DNA of 42,284 bases, from contig JAHBWH010000059.1 of NCBI GenBank assembly GCA_019637115.1, forward strand, positions 1 through 42,284, written 5' to 3'. The notes under the pieces were generated by a model, which searched no databases, had not been told where the DNA came from, and was given only the letters and a program-made list of their open reading frames with translations. This document shows positions 18,809 through 27,842 of the stretch, one piece after another (positions within the stretch are counted from its first letter, which is position 1; the number at the start of each line of letters is the position of its first letter). The DNA is from Myxococcales bacterium. Its GTDB lineage: Bacteria; Myxococcota_A; Polyangia; Polyangiales; Houyiibacteriaceae. The position numbers and the translations under genes are program-made.

Positions 18809-19509
18809 TCGTGTAGCCCCTACGTGCCCGTCGCCTCGCCGTGGATGCGTCCCGAGTTCGGCCCGGTGCGGGTTTGGCAGTTCGGATGTCTCTTCCAACA
18901 CCGCGTCCGCGGGGACGTGCAGCTCCTGGGTGCGGCGCCGGCACGAAGACCGAGGGCTCGTCCACCTCTTCCATCCCGTGTGCCTCGTCCCCTCGCCGAG
19001 CGAAGCGCTGACCGAGGTCGGCGGGGGTCAGTGTCCATGCCACGTCGCGGCCGTCGACCACGACCGAAAGCGCCTCGAGCGGCTCTGCCGCTACGTCGCG
19101 CGACCGCCGCGCAACCAAGAGCTGCCGCCGCCCAGACTTCACGCTCCGCGAACACGGCGTCGTCGCCGCGCACTCCTCCGTGCACCGCTCGAGCGTACCC
19201 CCATCGTGTCCCGTGAGTGCAGAGCCCGCTGGCTGCGCAGCTGGGGGGAGGGGGGCTGCTTCCGCCCGCCGCGGTCGCCGACCCATGAAGTGCGTTGGAG
19301 AGCTGTGGGGCTCGACCGTGACGGCCCAGGTCGTCGCGTCGCGGTGATCTGCACAGGTGGTGACCGCGTTGTGATCGCGTTGTGACGCGTTGTGGTCACG
19401 CGGCGTCGGCTCATTGACTGGACGAAGTGACCATAGGAAGCGGGCCTCTGTCGAGATAGGTTGGCTCGGCGCCGAACGATGTTCGCCGCCAAAGCTCGAA
19501 GGGGGGCGA
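18809..19509. other. Long gene-poor gap with a possible decayed minus-strand fragment
   Basis: This 701-bp stretch has no convincing intact gene. On the minus strand, about 19150 to 18930 reads with coding-like bias through EPLEALSVVVDGRDVAWTL and EVDEPSVFVPAPH; a different frame then continues as ELHVPADAVLEETSELPNPH. This suggests a frameshifted remnant of a lost gene. The right part holds the repeated element at 19360-19399 and presumably the kinase3 promoter. Confidence 0.35.
19360..19399. promoter_or_regulatory. Three helically phased repeats CGCGTTGTGA upstream of kinase3
   Basis: Copies of CGCGTTGTG(A/G) begin at 19365, 19376 and 19386, spaced 11 and 10 bp, so they face the same side of the helix. 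They are flanked by the inverted pair GTGACC (19360-19365) and GGTCAC (19394-19399). The block lies about 110 bp before the kinase3 GTG. It looks like an iterated operator; the binding protein is unknown. Confidence 0.5.
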
Positions 19510-21183
19510 GTGAGCCAGAGGATCGCAACGGATCATCTCGAAGACGTGGGGCCGAGAGAGGACCCCTACATCGGGACGACACTTGCGAACCGATATCGGG
19601 TGCTTCGGCGTCTCGGCGGCGGCGGCATGGGGAGCGTCTACGAGGCCGAGCACCTCGTGATTGGCCGACGGGTGGCCGTCAAGATGCTGCACGTCCAGTT
19701 CTCGATGGACGCTTCGGTGGTTCGGCGTTTCTTGAACGAGGCCCGCGCGGCCGCGATGGTTCGACACCCGAACATCCTCGAATGCACCGATATGGGGCAG
19801 ACCGACGATGGGTCGCCCTTTCTTGTCCTCGATCTGCTCGAAGGATCAGACCTCGGCGCGCTCTTGGCGCAGGAGCGAATCGTACGGACAGGGCGCGCGG
19901 TGCGGATCGCGCTCCAGGTGGCGTCGGCGCTCTCGGCGGCGCACGCGAAGGGAATCGTTCATCGCGATCTCAAACCGGACAACATCTTCCTCGTCGAAGA
20001 CGACGTCGTCCGGGTGCTCGACTTCGGGATCTCGAAGTTCACGGGTCTCGAGAGCAGCGGCATCGGCACCGCGACCGGCTCGGTCATGGGCACCCCTCAC
20101 TACATGGCCCCCGAGCAGCTCCGCGACGCCAGCCGCGTGGACGCGCGCGCCGACATCTACGCGCTCGGGGTGATCCTCTACGAGTCCTTCGTTGGACACC
20201 CTCCGTTCGAAGCGACCACGCTGCCCGAGCTGGTCCTCATGATCGCCGCGGATCGGCCGGCGCCACTCGGCGAGCTACGGCCCGACCTTCCTGCGGTGCT
20301 CACGGACGCGGTGATGCGCGCGCTCGAACGAGACCTCGACGCGCGCTTCGCGACGATGGACGCGTTCGCTGCGGCGATTGCTCCCTTTGCGGGCCTGGAT
20401 GGGCCAGTGCCAGTCGACCCCGTGACCGCAGAGCGTCCCATTCCGGCCGAGAGCGGCATCGCGCTCAGTCGACGCGGGCTCGAGGCGCTGTCGAGCGCGA
20501 ACGACGTGCCCGTGCTCTCGCTCCCCGTCCAGCGTCCGCTTTGGCTGTTCGTCTCAGCGGCGTTGGTGCTCGTCGCCGCGGTGGCGGCGTGGCTCTGGTG
20601 GGGCGCTGGGGAGCGGGCGCCACTTCAAGCCGAGGGGGGCGTCGAAGGTGCGTCGGCGCCGGACGAAGGAGGGCGAGGGCCCGAAGCGTCGACCGAGCGA
20701 AACGAACTCGAGAACGGGTCCGGCGAGGCCCGCGAGCCGGTCGGGGCGCACGCGAGCGAGAGCACCGACGAGCCTACTGCCGAGACCACTTCCGAACCCA
20801 CCGGTTCCGAGCTTCCGTCTGGCCTCGCACATGCGAGCGCAGAGGGCGAGGGCGCTCCTGCACCGAGCGCCGGGCTACGACCGACGCGCATGAGCGCGAC
20901 CTCCAACGCCCGCCGCAGAGGCGTCGAGGAACGTGAAGCCGCCGTCGTTCCATCGACGAGCCCAGGCCGGGCGGTCGCGTCGGCACCCTCGGCCGCTTCC
21001 GCGCCAATTGCCTCCGGGGGGGCCGCGCCCTCGGCACCCCCGTCGCCCACCGCGCGGGCGCCTGCCCCCACGCCATCGGCCGCCCCCGCGCCATCGGCCG
21101 CCCCCGCGCCATCGGCCGCCCCCTCTGCGCCTACGGCGCCCAACCCCCGTCGAGGAGCCAACGCGGCTCCCATCGGAGACTGA
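19510..21183 (+). CDS. Membrane Ser/Thr kinase with Pro/Ala-rich tail (kinase3)
   Basis: A 557-residue kinase. The GTG at 19510 follows a strong AAGGGGGG ribosome site; longer in-frame starts lack one. The kinase domain has LGGGGMGSVYEA (35-46), Lys58 in VAVKML, HRDLKPDN (151-158), VLDFGISK (DFG 171-173) and GTPHYMAPEQ. One membrane helix (about 343-365, LFVSAALVLVAAVAAWLWW) is followed by about 190 residues of low-complexity Glu/Ser/Thr/Pro/Ala sequence with PSAAPA repeats, probably a flexible stalk through the periplasm or peptidoglycan. No folded sensor domain is seen in the tail. P3 begins 5 bp after the stop and may act as the missing PEGA sensor (inference). Confidence 0.92.
   Translation: MSQRIATDHLEDVGPREDPYIGTTLANRYRVLRRLGGGGMGSVYEAEHLVIGRRVAVKMLHVQFSMDASVVRRFLNEARAAAMVRHPNILECTDMGQTDDGSPFLVLDLLEGSDLGALLAQERIVRTGRAVRIALQVASALSAAHAKGIVHRDLKPDNIFLVEDDVVRVLDFGISKFTGLESSGIGTATGSVMGTPHYMAPEQLRDASRVDARADIYALGVILYESFVGHPPFEATTLPELVLMIAADRPAPLGELRPDLPAVLTDAVMRALERDLDARFATMDAFAAAIAPFAGLDGPVPVDPVTAERPIPAESGIALSRRGLEALSSANDVPVLSLPVQRPLWLFVSAALVLVAAVAAWLWWGAGERAPLQAEGGVEGASAPDEGGRGPEASTERNELENGSGEAREPVGAHASESTDEPTAETTSEPTGSELPSGLAHASAEGEGAPAPSAGLRPTRMSATSNARRRGVEEREAAVVPSTSPGRAVASAPSAASAPIASGGAAPSAPPSPTARAPAPTPSAAPAPSAAPAPSAAPSAPTAPNPRRGANAAPIGD
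21073..21126 (+). repeat. 18-bp tandem repeat encoding PSAAPA
   Basis: Nearly three copies of an 18-bp unit, CCATCGGCCGCCCCCGCG, in the kinase3 stalk. It is likely to vary in copy number. Confidence 0.8.
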
Positions 21184-21187
21184 GCTG

Positions 21188-22147
21188 ATGATTCGTCATA
21201 TCAGGCTGGCGGCTGCGGTCTTCGCGGTCGGCGCGTTGCTGGTGGTGCCCAGGGCTTCGGCGCAGTCGGAGGCCGACGCGCTCATCTCCCGCGCGATCGA
21301 GCTGCGCGGAGAGGGGCGGGACATGGAGGCGCTCGAGCTCTTGGTGGCCGCCTACGAAGCGAGCCCGACGCCGCGGTCCGCCGCGCAGCTCGGCTTCTGC
21401 AACCAGGCCCTCGGGCGTTGGGTCGAGGCCGAGCGCCGACTGCTGGAGGCGGTGCGCGCGGAGGCCGATCCGTGGATCGCGCAACGCCGAGCGACCCTCG
21501 AGGAGAGTCTCGCGTTCGTTCGCAGAAACCTCGGGTCGCTCGAGGTCCTGAGCAACGTCGAGGGCGCGACCGTACGCATCGGCGGCGACGAGGTAGGGGT
21601 GACACCGCTCGATCGGAGGGTGCGAGTGCAAGCCGGACAGGTCGAGATCGAAGTCTCGCACCCTGGGTACGAGCGGCGGGTCGTTGCGATCGTGGTCGTT
21701 CCCGGAGGCGAGGCGCGGCAGCTGGTGGAGCTCGTCGCGCGGACCGGGACCACCGCGGAAGCGGGCGCGGTGGCGAACGAGCATCGAGGCAACGCGCGGA
21801 GCGCTCGCGCGCTGGTGGGACCCATCACGCTCTTCAGCGTGGCGGTGGCGGGGGCGCTCACCTTCGCGGTCAGCGGCGGCCTCGCCCTCAGCGAGGACGC
21901 GCGGCTCGCGGACGATTGTGGCGCCAACGTGGGGGCACGTTGCACGGGCGACGACCTGGCAGCCCTCCATCGGCGGTCGCTCATCGCAGACATTGGATGG
22001 ATCACGGCCGCAGCGGCCTTGGTCGCGGGGGTGACCTGGCTGACGTTCGCGCTTCGTCGCACGGACAGTGGCCCGAGCGCCCTCCGCTTGAGCCCGTGGG
22101 CAACGGCGGGAGCCGGCGGCCTCGTCCTGAGGGGGAGCTTGCAATGA
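21188..22147 (+). CDS. TPR-PEGA protein P3 with C-terminal membrane hairpin
   Basis: A 319-residue exported protein. A cleavable signal peptide (AAAVFAVGALLVVPRASAQ, AxA site) is followed by TPR-like helices (EGRDMEALELLVAAYEASPT), one PEGA domain (LGSLEVLSNVEGATVRIGGD, VQAGQVEIEVSHPGYERR) and two membrane segments near the C-terminus (ITLFSVAVAGALTFAVSG and IGWITAAAALVAGVTWLTF) separated by a Cys-containing loop. The layout matches P1. ATG 21188 is 5 bp after kinase3, and the stop overlaps the next gene. P3 is thus the middle gene of a kinase-PEGA-lipoprotein operon. Confidence 0.82.
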   Translation: MIRHIRLAAAVFAVGALLVVPRASAQSEADALISRAIELRGEGRDMEALELLVAAYEASPTPRSAAQLGFCNQALGRWVEAERRLLEAVRAEADPWIAQRRATLEESLAFVRRNLGSLEVLSNVEGATVRIGGDEVGVTPLDRRVRVQAGQVEIEVSHPGYERRVVAIVVVPGGEARQLVELVARTGTTAEAGAVANEHRGNARSARALVGPITLFSVAVAGALTFAVSGGLALSEDARLADDCGANVGARCTGDDLAALHRRSLIADIGWITAAAALVAGVTWLTFALRRTDSGPSALRLSPWATAGAGGLVLRGSLQ

Positions 22148-24186
22148 TGAATGACGACCAGCGGATGAGCTCAGTGGCGGCGCCGAGCTGCCCCTTCGGC
22201 ACGCGAGTGAAGTCCTTCGGGGTGTCGTGCTTGAGGCGCGCTGTGGACGCGCGCTGGGTCACCCTGTGCGTCCTCGCGCTCGGCTCGAGCGCTTGCTCGC
22301 TGGTGCTCGACGGCAAGCGGCACCACCAAGACGGCGCGGTGGCGGACTCGTCGGTCGAGGGCGGCGCGATGGATGGAGGGGTCGACGCGCACGATGCTTT
22401 GGACGCTGACGCGGGCGGGGGAGATACCGGCGATGCGGGAACCGGTGTCGGTACTCCCTGCGCAACGGAGGGAGCCATCACATGCGACGGCCCGGTCGAC
22501 CCGATTCGATGCGAAGGTGGGGTCTGGGTCGAGGCCGAGTCCTGCGATACCGGTGAGCGTTGCGACACTCGACCCGACAACGAAGGCGCCTGCGAGCCGA
22601 TCGTCCCGGAGTGTGCGGACGCGTTGCCTGGCGAAGCGGCCTGTCGGGGGGTGGAACGTTTCACCTGCGGTCCGGATCTTGTGAGCCGCGAGGAGCTCGA
22701 GCTCTGCGCGGGCGGGTGCGTGGGCGGCGCATGCACGGCTTGCCAACCGGAGGCGCGGCGGTGTCGCGGCCAACTGCCCGAGTTCTGCGAAGCGACTGGC
22801 GAGTGGAGCGAGGGGGCACCCTGCGAGTACCTCTGCGAGGCGGGCGAGTGCGTGGGTGAATGCCTACCAGATACCCAACGTTGCCGACCGGGCGCACCGC
22901 TGACGCCCCAACGATGCGACGCCTCCGGCCGGTGGCAGGACCAACCGCTGTGCGCCACGGCGTGCAACGATGGGGACTGCGGCGCGTGCACGACCGGGGC
23001 CCGGCGGTGCAACGGACAGACCCAGCAGACCTGCTCCGCAGCGGGAATGTGGGGCGATGACGCGTCCTGCGCGACGATGAGTATGACCTGCCGCACGACG
23101 ACCGGAGAATGCGGCGGCGTGTGCGCTGTCGGTGAGGTCCAGTGCACACCGGACAACCGGCAGCAGACGTGCACCGGACACGGGGACTGGGGTTCGGGCG
23201 TGCTCCTCGTCGGGGCCTGCACTGCGGAGTGTACCCCCGGCGCTCGACGATGCGTGGGCAACTCCACCCAGACCTGCGGCGCGAACGCGCGCTGGGGAGC
23301 GCAGGTCAGCTGCGGCGGCACCACGCCGACGTGCGACCCCGGCACTGGCGCTTGTGTTGTCTGCCTGGCTGGAGCGACGAGATGCGTCTCCGGGAACCTA
23401 CGACAAACGTGCACGGCGAGCCAACAGTGGGGAGCTGGCTCGTTGATCGTCGGTCAGTGCGGCGCGGTGTGCACCCCGGGGAGCCGCCGATGCACCGGGA
23501 ACTCGACGCAAACGTGCGGTTCGGATGGGACGTGGGGAGCCTCGACGACGAGCTGCACGTCCACCAACCGAACCTGCATTGTGGCGACCGGGCAGTGCGG
23601 CGGGGTCTGCGTGGCGGGGGCCACGAGATGCAGCGGCAGCAGCGGCACGACGCTTCAGACCTGCTCGACGACGGGGGCATGGGCCACTACTCAATCCTGT
23701 GTTGACTCTTGCCGTACCTCAAGTTCAGGGTTTTCCGAATGTCACGCGGGGTGCGCAACGTTTAACCGACCGTTCACATGGCGATATCAGAGCTCTGGTG
23801 GCGGCTGCTGGAGCAACGGTGACATCTGTGGTGGTACACATCGAGCGCCATCGACCGGATGCACATTTGGCGCGCACACCTACAACATCAACCGAGTCGC
23901 CATCCACATCGACCTCATTCGAGGCGACGGGGGCAGCTGCAAGAACACCAACGAGATCATTGGCCGTTTCGAGCAGTGCACCAGCCCGAGTTTTGGATGC
24001 ACAACGTTGCGAGAGGTGCGGGCAACCGAGTTCTACAACCGGGCTCCGTTGACGCTGTACGCCCAGCCGGGGCGATTCTATCGCTTTTTCAGAACCGCGA
24101 CGGGACGGACGAGCCTTACGGGTCACTGTGAGTTCGGTTACCGAATCAACCGAGTTTGCCCCGGGTGCCCGTTGGAAGTTCCGTAA
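22144..24186 (+). CDS. Cys-rich repeat lipoprotein, C-terminus ended by an IS21-type element
   Basis: A 680-residue surface lipoprotein. After a roughly 45-residue leader, the segment VTLCVLALGSSAC gives a lipoprotein signal; an Asp/Gly-rich linker follows. About ten repeats of roughly 35-45 residues then occur, each close to C-x-G-x(4)-QTC-x(4)-W-x(5)-C (for example RRCVGNSTQTCGANARW, RRCTGNSTQTCGSDGTW). The final 150 residues form a separate, less GC-rich domain (FNRPFTWRYQSSGGGCW to CEFGYRINRVCPGC). The TAA stop at 24184-24186 and perhaps the last two residues belong to the IS21-type terminal repeat, so the natural C-terminus may be lost. ATG 22144 overlaps the P3 stop. The role is probably surface adhesion or recognition (inference). 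Confidence 0.82.
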   Translation: MMNDDQRMSSVAAPSCPFGTRVKSFGVSCLRRAVDARWVTLCVLALGSSACSLVLDGKRHHQDGAVADSSVEGGAMDGGVDAHDALDADAGGGDTGDAGTGVGTPCATEGAITCDGPVDPIRCEGGVWVEAESCDTGERCDTRPDNEGACEPIVPECADALPGEAACRGVERFTCGPDLVSREELELCAGGCVGGACTACQPEARRCRGQLPEFCEATGEWSEGAPCEYLCEAGECVGECLPDTQRCRPGAPLTPQRCDASGRWQDQPLCATACNDGDCGACTTGARRCNGQTQQTCSAAGMWGDDASCATMSMTCRTTTGECGGVCAVGEVQCTPDNRQQTCTGHGDWGSGVLLVGACTAECTPGARRCVGNSTQTCGANARWGAQVSCGGTTPTCDPGTGACVVCLAGATRCVSGNLRQTCTASQQWGAGSLIVGQCGAVCTPGSRRCTGNSTQTCGSDGTWGASTTSCTSTNRTCIVATGQCGGVCVAGATRCSGSSGTTLQTCSTTGAWATTQSCVDSCRTSSSGFSECHAGCATFNRPFTWRYQSSGGGCWSNGDICGGTHRAPSTGCTFGAHTYNINRVAIHIDLIRGDGGSCKNTNEIIGRFEQCTSPSFGCTTLREVRATEFYNRAPLTLYAQPGRFYRFFRTATGRTSLTGHCEFGYRINRVCPGCPLEVP

Positions 24187-24988
24187 AATCTGAGCCGCTC
24201 GTTCCGGAAAATCTGAGCCGCTCGGTGTCGTCCAAATCGTCGTTCAGGGTGGGGTCGTCCGCCAAGTGCTTGGTGCGCATGGAGGGGCCGTCGAGGCGCA
24301 GCAGGCGGCCACGCTCGAGGACGCGATCGACGATGACCTCGGCGAGGTCGTCGTCGTGAAGGACCGGGCCCCAGCGCTTGGGGTGCTTGTTCGTGGTGAA
24401 GATCATCGAGCGCCGTCGGATGTGTCGCTCGTTGACCACGTGGAAGAGCACGTTGGCGGCGTCGCTGCCGTAGGTGAGGTAGCCGACCTCGTCGACGACG
24501 AGGACGTGAGGCTTCACGTAGCGAGCGAGCGTGTCGCGGAAGGTGCCGTCGCGGCTCGCGCGAGAGAGCTCGTCGATCATCTCCGCGCAGTTGGCGAAGA
24601 GGGCCTCGAAGCCGAGTTGCATCGCGCGGTAGGCGAGCGCGATCGCGAGGTGGGTCTTGCCGCGTCCGGTCTTGCCGTGGAGCACGACCGATTGGCCTTC
24701 GGTGACGAAGTCGGGCGAGCACAGCGAGCCGATGGTCGTGAGACGCAGCGTCGATTGGTACGAGAAGTCGAACTCCTCGATGGTGCGTAGGAAGGGGAAC
24801 CGCGCGGCTCGGACGGCGCGCTGCAGCCGGGTGCCTCGACGATGCGCGATCTCTTCGCCGAAGAGCGTCGTGAGCAGCTGCTCGTGGGTCCACTGCTCGG
24901 CTTCGGCGCGGCGCACCATGTCGCGCCACACGCGCCGAGCGTTCGCGAGGTGAAGCCGCTTGAGGATGGGGTCGAGGTCGGTGCTCAC
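24146..24988 (-). CDS. istB: IS21-family helper ATPase IstB
   Basis: A 280-residue AAA+ ATPase that assists the IstA transposase of IS21-type elements. Walker A is HGKTGRGKTHLA (about 104-115), Walker B is VLVVDEVGYL, and TTNKHPKRWG is the usual sensor-region segment. The N-terminal helix bundle has EQWTHEQLLTTLFGEEI. The start ATG 24988 overlaps the end of the istA remnant, as in IS21 operons. The frame does not stop inside the element: it reads through both terminal repeats and ends 32 bp inside the repeat-free Cys-rich gene. The last roughly 12 residues are therefore foreign, and the original stop is probably lost. It is probably inactive without an intact istA. Confidence 0.9.
   Translation of the reverse strand: MSTDLDPILKRLHLANARRVWRDMVRRAEAEQWTHEQLLTTLFGEEIAHRRGTRLQRAVRAARFPFLRTIEEFDFSYQSTLRLTTIGSLCSPDFVTEGQSVVLHGKTGRGKTHLAIALAYRAMQLGFEALFANCAEMIDELSRASRDGTFRDTLARYVKPHVLVVDEVGYLTYGSDAANVLFHVVNERHIRRRSMIFTTNKHPKRWGPVLHDDDLAEVIVDRVLERGRLLRLDGPSMRTKHLADDPTLNDDLDDTERLRFSGTSGSDFTELPTGTRGKLG
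24178..24223 (+). repeat. Two tandem 23-bp terminal repeats of the IS21-type element
   Basis: Units beginning at 24178 and 24201 share GTTCCG, one variable base, then AAAATCTGAGCCGCTC. Multiple repeats at the ends are typical of IS21-family elements. The matching opposite end was not found in the window. Confidence 0.8.
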
Positions 24989-25527
24989 GAGCGACCTCCT
25001 GCGTCGAGCGCGTGTTGGAGAGCACGGCGGACGCCGGCGAAAGTGCGCGCGTTGCCCCGCAGGACGTGACGGATCGCGCGCTTCATCGCGTCGTCGCCGT
25101 GCTCGTCGTAGAGCGCGTACAGGAGCTCGACGATCGCCGTGTTCTGCTTCGGGGCGCGGTGGCGCAAGTCGGTCAGCAGCGCCTCCGCCTCTTAGCCGAG
25201 CTCGAGCAACTGCTGCCGCTTCTCGTAGAGGACGGCACGAGCTCCACGGACCGATGCGAGCTTCGCGCGGCGCAGCTCCGGGGACGAGACGCGCGCGCCG
25301 GGACGACCGCGGAGGTGAGTCGTCTCGTGTCGACCGACCACGGAGCGAATCCGATCCGCGTACACGAACGCGGTCCCCGGCGTGTTGGCGGCCTCGGGAG
25401 GCATGGCGTACCGAACGTTCTCGAACCTCACCTCCGCGCTCGGCCCCACACAGCTCAATGCGGTATACGGTTCCTCGAGCTCGAACATCTGGGCGGTCGG
25501 GAACAACGGCGTCATTCTCCGATACAT
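24985..25527 (-). pseudogene. istA: IstA transposase C-terminal remnant with nonsense codon
   Basis: In one frame, just before istB, lies a C-terminal part of an IS21-type transposase: VRFENVRYAMPPEAANT and GRHETTHLRGRPG resemble the IstA beta-barrel region, followed by helices (LYEKRQQLLELG, then AIVELLYALYDEHGDDAM, IRHVLRGNARTF). An in-frame TAA at 25192-25194 splits it after LLELG. The N-terminal HTH and DDE catalytic domain are absent upstream. The first roughly 30 residues near 25527 are not clearly IstA, so the 5' boundary is uncertain. Confidence 0.6.
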
Positions 25528-25588
25528 GCCCTGAGCTCCTCCGACGCGAGCCCTCGTCTCACGAAACCACAGGGAGCGTCGGCGAACA

Positions 25589-26125
25589 TCAGCCTCCGGC
25601 CACCTGCTTCGCCTCCCGCAGCCAGCCCATCAAGACCTCGTCCTCCACTCCATCCTCGAGCCCCTCCCACGCGCGCCGCAGCCCATCCTCCGCGACGCGC
25701 TCCGCCGCCCCGACCTCGCGGTGCGCGAGCGCGAGCTCTTGGAGCTTCCCGGCGAGCGCTCGATCCGCGACGCGCTCCGACAAACGCAGCCAGCCGGTCG
25801 CGGGCTGCGCGCCCGGCATGACGATCAACTTCCCGGCGAGCGCTTCACCGGCGGCCTTCAAACGCGGATCTCTGGCCCCACAAGCCATCCAGGCGAGCGT
25901 CAGCAAGGGCGCGCTCGGCGAGACCCGCGAGGCGTCGATCGCGAAGCAGATCGCGGAGAGCCGCTCGGCGACGTCCTGCTCGCCGCGCCGCAGCGCAGCG
26001 ATGGCGTCGAGCGCACGCCACGTGACGGTCGGCGCGCCGGGCGGCGGCCCCGCGGTGCCCGACTCGAGAGGATGATCGCCACCGTGGTCGGAACGGCGTC
26101 GAGGGCGGTTCCGCGGTGTACAGAT
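25589..26125 (-). pseudogene. 5'-truncated orphan reading frame of unknown function
   Basis: The frame is open on the minus strand for about 178 codons from an upstream stop (26126) to TGA at 25589, with coding-like composition: WRALDAIAALRRGEQDVAER, LSAICFAIDASRV, PLLTLAWMACGARDPRLK, LALAHREVGAAERVAEDG. There is no ATG or GTG early in the frame; the first possible start is TTG at 25906. It is alpha-helical in look, perhaps a repeat protein. It is probably the 3' end of a gene cut off by rearrangement between the IS21 remnant and the 26126 break. No family is recognised. Confidence 0.45.
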
Positions 26126-26398: not shown

Positions 26399-26839
26399 AT
26401 GCCGAAGACCGTGCCTGAAAGCCAAGCCGCTGCCAACCTTCCGCAGCGAACCTCTCTGGGAGCTGCGTTCAAGAAGGAGGTGAGCCGACGAGTATCGGGC
26501 GGGGACTTCGCCGAGCGCGAGAGGGTGGCGTTGGAGGTCGCGAACGAGCTCGTCCGAGAGGAGCTCATCGCGAGCTTGAACACGATCGTCACGTCACAGG
26601 GCACCGGCGATCTGAGCGTCGACGGCGTGCGCTACCGATGGCACGCGGAGGGCTCGGCCAAATACCACAGCCTGGTCGGACCGCTGGAGATCAAGCGTCC
26701 CTCGTTCCGCAAAGCAGACGAGCGCAACGGACCGACCTGCATCCCGTTGGAGCTGGCTGCCGGACTGGTCGAGCGCGCAACACCTGCGCTCGCTGAGCGC
26801 GTCGCGATGGGACGTGGGGACGGGCCTTCGCTTTTGTGA
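26399..26839 (+). CDS. ISKra4-type transposase, N-terminal frame (orfA)
   Basis: A 146-residue frame holding the N-terminal part of the transposase: KKEVSRRVSGGDFAERERVA, ANELVREELIASLNTIV, VDGVRYRWHAEGSAKYHSLV and PLEIKRPSFRKADER, as in ISKra4 relatives (a Tyr/His-containing beta region before the catalytic core). Homology appears to run to about GLVERATPALAERVAMG near 26810, after which the frame reads a few unrelated residues and stops. The C-terminal part continues in the +1 frame. It may be joined by programmed frameshifting, known in some members of this family, or broken by mutation. Confidence 0.85.
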   Translation: MPKTVPESQAAANLPQRTSLGAAFKKEVSRRVSGGDFAERERVALEVANELVREELIASLNTIVTSQGTGDLSVDGVRYRWHAEGSAKYHSLVGPLEIKRPSFRKADERNGPTCIPLELAAGLVERATPALAERVAMGRGDGPSLL

Positions 26840-27842
26840 TCTGCACCAGCAACTCCTCGCGTCCCATCGCGTGCCACCGAGTCGCTCCACCCTCCAGGTG
26901 ATGGGCACGCGCATCGGTACCGCCTTGGACCAGCACACGGCGCAACTCGAGACGTGCGCCCGCGGCGCCGAGAAGCTTCCCCCCGAAGCCGTGACCATCT
27001 GCGTCGGGCTCGATCGTACGTCGGCACCGATGGAAGAGACGCTGCCCGAAGATGCGCCCCGACGTGAACGGGTGAAGCCACGGGTGCGAAAAGCACCGCC
27101 CCCGGTGACGGTGAACTACCGGATGGCCTACGTCGGCACCGTCTCGCTGGTAGATGCCGGTGGCGAGGTCATCCAGACGTACAAGTACGCGGCCACCGCG
27201 GAGGACGGCCCCCAGCAAGTCCTGCATTCGATGATGCAGGACGTGCGGAGGGCGCAGAGGCAGGACCGTTCCTTGCGCGTCATCGTCGTTCAGGACGCGG
27301 CCAGGGAGATGTGGAACCTCGTCGTCGAAGCCCTGCACGCCGAGCCGTCGGTCGACCACTGGGACGAGCTCATCGACCACCACCACCATGGCACCGCCCA
27401 CATGTGGAAAGCTGCCTCGGCGATGGCCGCGAACACCAATGCGACCATGGAGCGATGGCTCGGCGACCTGCGCCGCAGTGACGACGCCATCGACCGGATC
27501 GCCGCCGAGCTCGATGTGGAGCGGCAGCTTGGCTACCACCCGACCTTTCGCATCATCTTGGAGGACGAACTCACGTTCATCACCAACAACGGCGCCCGGC
27601 TCCGCTACGCCTCCCTCCGAGACGCAGGCTTCCCGATCGGCTCTGGCCCCACCGAAGGCGCTTGCAAGTCCTTCTTCTCCATCCGGTGCAAGCGCTCCGG
27701 ACAGCGCTGGCGCAACCCCGGGCTCGCCGCCGTCCTTGCCTCTCGATCCCACCTCCTCAACGGACGACTCTCCGCAGTCATGCGGAACCTACGAAAGCGC
27801 TTCTACACCGCACAGATCGAAACGCTGCCCCGCGCCGCCTGA
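26814..27842 (+). CDS. ISKra4-type transposase, catalytic and C-terminal frame (orfB)
   Basis: A 342-residue frame, +1 relative to orfA, probably not started on its own. It opens with GLRFCDLHQQLLASHRVPPS (helical), then VTICVGLDRTSAPMEE with the first catalytic Asp (GLD), VIVVQDAAREMWN with the second (QDAA), an HHHHGTAHMWKAAS stretch, and GFPIGSGPTEGACKSFFSIR with the Glu of GPTEGACK. The tail RCKRSGQRWRNPGL is strongly typical of ISKra4 transposases. GTG 26814 is only the first start codon after the presumed shift. The stop codon lies inside the right inverted repeat. Confidence 0.88.
   Translation: MGTGLRFCDLHQQLLASHRVPPSRSTLQVMGTRIGTALDQHTAQLETCARGAEKLPPEAVTICVGLDRTSAPMEETLPEDAPRRERVKPRVRKAPPPVTVNYRMAYVGTVSLVDAGGEVIQTYKYAATAEDGPQQVLHSMMQDVRRAQRQDRSLRVIVVQDAAREMWNLVVEALHAEPSVDHWDELIDHHHHGTAHMWKAASAMAANTNATMERWLGDLRRSDDAIDRIAAELDVERQLGYHPTFRIILEDELTFITNNGARLRYASLRDAGFPIGSGPTEGACKSFFSIRCKRSGQRWRNPGLAAVLASRSHLLNGRLSAVMRNLRKRFYTAQIETLPRAA

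Follow-up and report, generated by a model that had tools for sequence, protein, structure and literature searches.

According to published work on an IS21-family transposase (PMC10122671), the element ends have two direct repeats spaced 23 bp apart and a terminal CA, and the target is duplicated over 5 bp. The closest relative of the copy described here, L150, has 82% IstB identity to it, is complete at 2474 bp with TG...CA ends, and is bordered on both sides by the perfect 5-bp target duplication CCCGC. Two further relatives, L151 (2438 bp) and L153 (2506 bp), are also complete, with flanks that carry no exact duplication. The window, a stretch of 42,284 nucleotides from a Myxococcales bacterium, contains the IS21 hallmarks of an IstB helper ATPase, direct repeats at a spacing of 23 (24178 and 24201) and a terminal CA/TG. 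With its closest IS21 copies, L150, L151 and L061, the window element shares IstB, C-terminal IstA sequence, the two 23-bp-spaced repeats and the TG/CA terminus. Unlike those three copies, it is missing the left end together with the half on the istA side, its istA contains a stop codon, and its outer repeat carries a private T.

The right end of an IS21-family remnant

The missing istA-side half, about 1.2 kb including the left end, amounts to about half of a normal element, and homology to istA stops near 25449. What is left consists of the following features.

24173-25449, minus strand: IS21-family remnant with the right end, istB and the C-terminal part of istA; terminus placed from eight relatives
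24146-24988, minus strand: istB ORF (NCBIfam IS21_help_AAA, NF038214, 220.1 bits against a cut-off of 200; Pfam PF01695, 2.7e-59)
24985-25449, minus strand: istA C-terminal fragment with an in-frame TAA at 25192-25194, from similarity to L061 IstA in six-frame translation
24178-24200, plus strand: outer right-end repeat R1, GTTCCGTAAAATCTGAGCCGCTC, holding the stop TAA 24184-24186 by virtue of the private T at 24184
24201-24223, plus strand: inner right-end repeat R2, GTTCCGGAAAATCTGAGCCGCTC, at the 23-bp spacing of published IS21 ends

The two repeats, each of 23 bp, differ by one base. The repeat pattern has two matches in the window and none in 100 shuffles, R1 and R2 are the sole exact copies in the 8.9-Mb genome, and the repeat is absent from the viral contigs that were searched. 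A third match, at C380:36228, was rejected as weak: it has two mismatches and is near chance for 8.9 Mb, where by our own estimate about one such match is expected.

The terminus of the element was mapped by collecting close IstB relatives and comparing the DNA past istB. Eight distinct relatives finish in GGAACNNNCA, and their sequences diverge directly after it. At the corresponding position the window shows GGAACTTCCA on the minus strand, and so the element starts at T24173 of the plus strand. Among the terminal five bases only the CA is common to the window and all relatives, the preceding three varying among the relatives as well. The first-pass annotation had recognized the repeat as the terminus of an IS21-type element, an identification borne out by the two 23-bp-spaced repeats beside istB and by the match of the terminus to the eight relatives; the end of the element lies 5 bp further out than had been noticed.

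A lipoprotein reading frame that enters the element

The element adjoins the third gene of an operon on the opposite strand, which comprises the following genes.

19390-21183, plus strand: Ser/Thr protein kinase ORF, the first gene of the operon (Pfam Pkinase, 3.5e-46)
21188-22147, plus strand: PEGA-domain protein (Pfam PEGA, 2.3e-08; 43% to the L123 PEGA protein)
22144-24186, plus strand: Cys-rich lipoprotein ORF of 680 aa, read as 3'-truncated and host-derived to about 24172

The kinase is 59% identical to the kinase of a paralogous operon, L123, and 69% to that of L124. The PEGA gene lies 3' of the kinase gene and ends in a TGA that shares bases with the lipoprotein ATG. The N-terminal stretch of the lipoprotein ORF ends in the lipobox-like LGSSAC, after which the Cys-rich repeats follow; its start, CSLVLDGKRHHQDGA, fits the lipoprotein pattern C(S/A)L(V/I/L)... 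with H, and cleavage there is putative.

The lipoprotein ORF crosses into the element within codon 677 and runs for 14 bases inside it (24173-24186). Host sequence supplies the ORF up to Pro676 and one further base, the T that opens codon 677; TG from the element completes this hybrid codon, and codons 678-680 (Glu-Val-Pro) together with the stop are element DNA. It had been observed earlier that the TAA begins with T24184 next to the repeat and that the last two codons, GTT CCG, match the repeat unit. Both observations are correct: the TAA at 24184-24186 overlaps AAAATCTGAGCC, which starts at 24185, and the GTTCCG at 24178-24183 recurs at 24201, where the second repeat begins. Where this TAA has its first base, T24184, the inner repeat and the outer repeat of every one of the eight relatives carry a G, which makes the lipoprotein stop, on the sequences compared, a private difference within the outer repeat. 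With the inner-repeat base at 24184, the lipoprotein frame would extend by ten codons, to a TGA.

Comparison with relatives fixes the terminus of the IS21 right end, and the stop, the three codons before it and two bases of codon 677 all fall within that end. The evidence thus supports the view that the present C-terminus of the lipoprotein was made by insertion, as the first-pass annotation had suspected when it proposed that the protein might be truncated or have been given a new end. Insertion into a coding sequence yields this arrangement, an ORF that enters an IS end without a stop.

The region that precedes the junction is an orphan. Residues 519-680 have no detectable homologue in 289 genomes of the class, no match by peptide patterns in 84,980 species genomes, and none among plasmids or PDB sequences; the full-length lipoprotein likewise has no match among plasmids. 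The same-genus genome G001 yielded neither a lipoprotein match nor an empty site, and no uninterrupted orthologue was found in the class genomes, the species genomes or G001. The DNA encoding residues 519-676 (23698-24171) has a GC content of 0.58-0.64, compared with 0.67-0.73 for the rest of the gene. Long open frames arise by chance in such GC-rich DNA, and the intact lipoprotein ORF is thus weak evidence of selection.

The WAVG fragment and a proposed history of the gene

Just past the IS remnant, on the strand of the lipoprotein gene, lies the end of a coding sequence.

25454-25534, plus strand: end of a WAVG-repeat gene, its last 26 codons plus stop, LNAVYGSSSSNIWAVGNNGVILRYMP (64% over 25 aa to the end of the L123 lipoprotein; motif scan)

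This fragment corresponds to one WAVG-repeat blade and aligns with the extreme end of the L123 lipoprotein. Lipoproteins linked to PEGA proteins were surveyed through the genes 3' of other PEGA proteins. L123, on contig C421 of the same genome, is a second operon with the order kinase-PEGA-lipoprotein that it shares with the window, and its lipoprotein ends in WAVG repeats, ...LNAVSGTGETNVWAVGNGGLILRYQ and stop. Another genome of the order encodes a PEGA-lipoprotein pair, L140, that ends in ...GWAVGEYGTILRYRP and stop. A WAVG end motif followed by a stop occurs at only three places (the window fragment, L123 and L140) in the 681 kb scanned, a rough background in which some loci overlap and about twenty were picked for their PEGA genes.

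The window lipoprotein and the L123 lipoprotein (CALVLDGSRHQDGA) share the start motif C(S/A)LVLDG.(R)H, and the L140 lipoprotein starts with CSLLFTGTEHQ. The L123 and L140 genes (L123:3688-5838 and L140:5463-8444) are examples of bacterial lipoproteins, encoded after a PEGA gene, that combine four to five Sushi repeats of the complement-control type with WAVG repeats. The window protein differs from both in that its Cys-rich repeats are not Sushi repeats and give no Sushi match, an orphan region precedes the IS, and no propeller is left in the ORF. WAVG repeats are absent from the 680-aa ORF and a single blade lies past the IS, so that we infer, and do not observe, former membership of the window gene in this group. 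At L139, in a same-family genome, the PEGA-linked lipoprotein lacks WAVG repeats.

The simplest reading is that the interrupted gene would once have ended in the WAVG fragment; the case for this origin of the WAVG end at 25454-25534 is somewhat better than even. The first-pass annotation had advised looking for the lost 3' part beyond the IS elements. That search returned a same-strand WAVG gene end like that of L123, which goes part of the way: what was recovered is only 26 codons, and its assignment is probable.

We consider it probable that an IS21 element inserted into the lipoprotein gene and that a deletion later removed DNA from within istA into the 3' part of the gene. According to this model, an IS21-family element would have transposed into the third gene of the kinase-PEGA-lipoprotein operon, with its istB-side end pointing toward the 5' part of the lipoprotein gene. 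A later deletion would then have taken the istA-side half of the element and most of the remaining gene, including the bulk of the propeller, leaving the last 26 codons, one WAVG blade, beside the istA remnant. From a remnant that lacks its istA-side half we infer the order of events, insertion first and deletion afterward. The shortened lipoprotein would still be made and anchored, without its propeller. Against this history we count that no uninterrupted orthologue was found, and the gene before insertion is thus not seen; that L139 is without WAVG repeats; that the Cys-rich repeats are not Sushi repeats; and that the WAVG match covers 26 codons only.

An alternative, which we regard as unlikely, is that the IS struck at or just before the natural stop, replacing a few residues at most, and that the WAVG end derives from another, mostly deleted downstream gene on the same strand. 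A structural model of the C-terminal region (176 residues, no alignment used; at a mean pLDDT of 46.6 it did not qualify for a fold search) would agree with this, since in that low-confidence, single-sequence model the last strand, at 160-168 of 176 residues, falls just before the IS and fits a nearly complete domain; the example of L139 points in the same direction. However, the host part has no stop ahead of the IS and its last base is the first of a codon, so a native stop would have had to be exactly the interrupted codon or to lie beyond it, and few WAVG ends occur in the DNA examined, where they otherwise close only PEGA-linked lipoproteins. That the junction arose other than by transposition into the gene, through recombination, deletion or assembly joining a pre-existing IS end with part of a gene, is highly improbable. 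In its favour are the loss of the istA half, a much rearranged setting with a second element and a gene fragment close at hand, and the draft state of the genome (434 contigs). Against it, the element side reaches the exact transposition terminus TG, where a random break would seldom fall, and the IS is single-copy in the genome, leaving the assembly no second copy to confuse.

The DNA that follows the WAVG fragment contains further debris. Positions 25589-26068 (minus strand) encode residues 277-435, the C-terminal portion of a 435-aa protein whose gene is complete in G001 (L050:9672-10979; 87% identity); the 5' portion of that gene did not turn up anywhere else in this genome. The neighbour of the gene in G001 is not a WAVG gene, and no WAVG gene occurs at the other loci of the 435-aa gene that were examined. 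Directly beside the broken gene, at 26399-27842, is an ISKra4-family transposase (NCBIfam, 2.6e-35, below the curated cut-off) in two overlapping frames, the frameshift being either programmed or a sign of decay. Insertions and gene debris form a patch that extends from 24173 to about 27850 and separates the operon from a pirin gene.

An istB frame without a stop inside the element

The istB ORF of the window crosses both repeats, leaves the element and overlaps the lipoprotein gene in antisense by 24-27 nt, reaching a stop at 24146-24148 (minus strand). Such reading into the lipoprotein gene had been described for this locus before; we find that it does happen here, and that it is not peculiar to this copy. 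All eight distinct copies with at least 65% IstB identity (the window, L150, L061, L151, L093, L152, L153 and L062) have no stop between the conserved part of istB and the IS terminus (24146-24240 in the window), and the istB frame continues through both end repeats. L063, in which istB is frameshifted, is also open through its single repeat, as judged by eye. In a more distant relative with 55% identity, L097, istB stops shortly after the conserved part. We tentatively suggest, from these reading frames, that in this IS21 clade istB may have no stop of its own, the repeats being translated in a fixed frame and the C-terminus being supplied by the target DNA. No report of a stop-less istB in IS21 was found in the literature, a weak negative.

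The whole case is an ordinary insertion scar, one that relatives make precisely readable, down to the residues of foreign origin, the probable whereabouts of the lost part and the course that decay of the scar has taken. The annotated C-terminus of the lipoprotein should be regarded as non-native and is unsuitable for defining the end of a family. The stop-less istB represents a small, testable question about IS21 helpers; if it is true, target DNA could influence the length or stability of the IstB helper.
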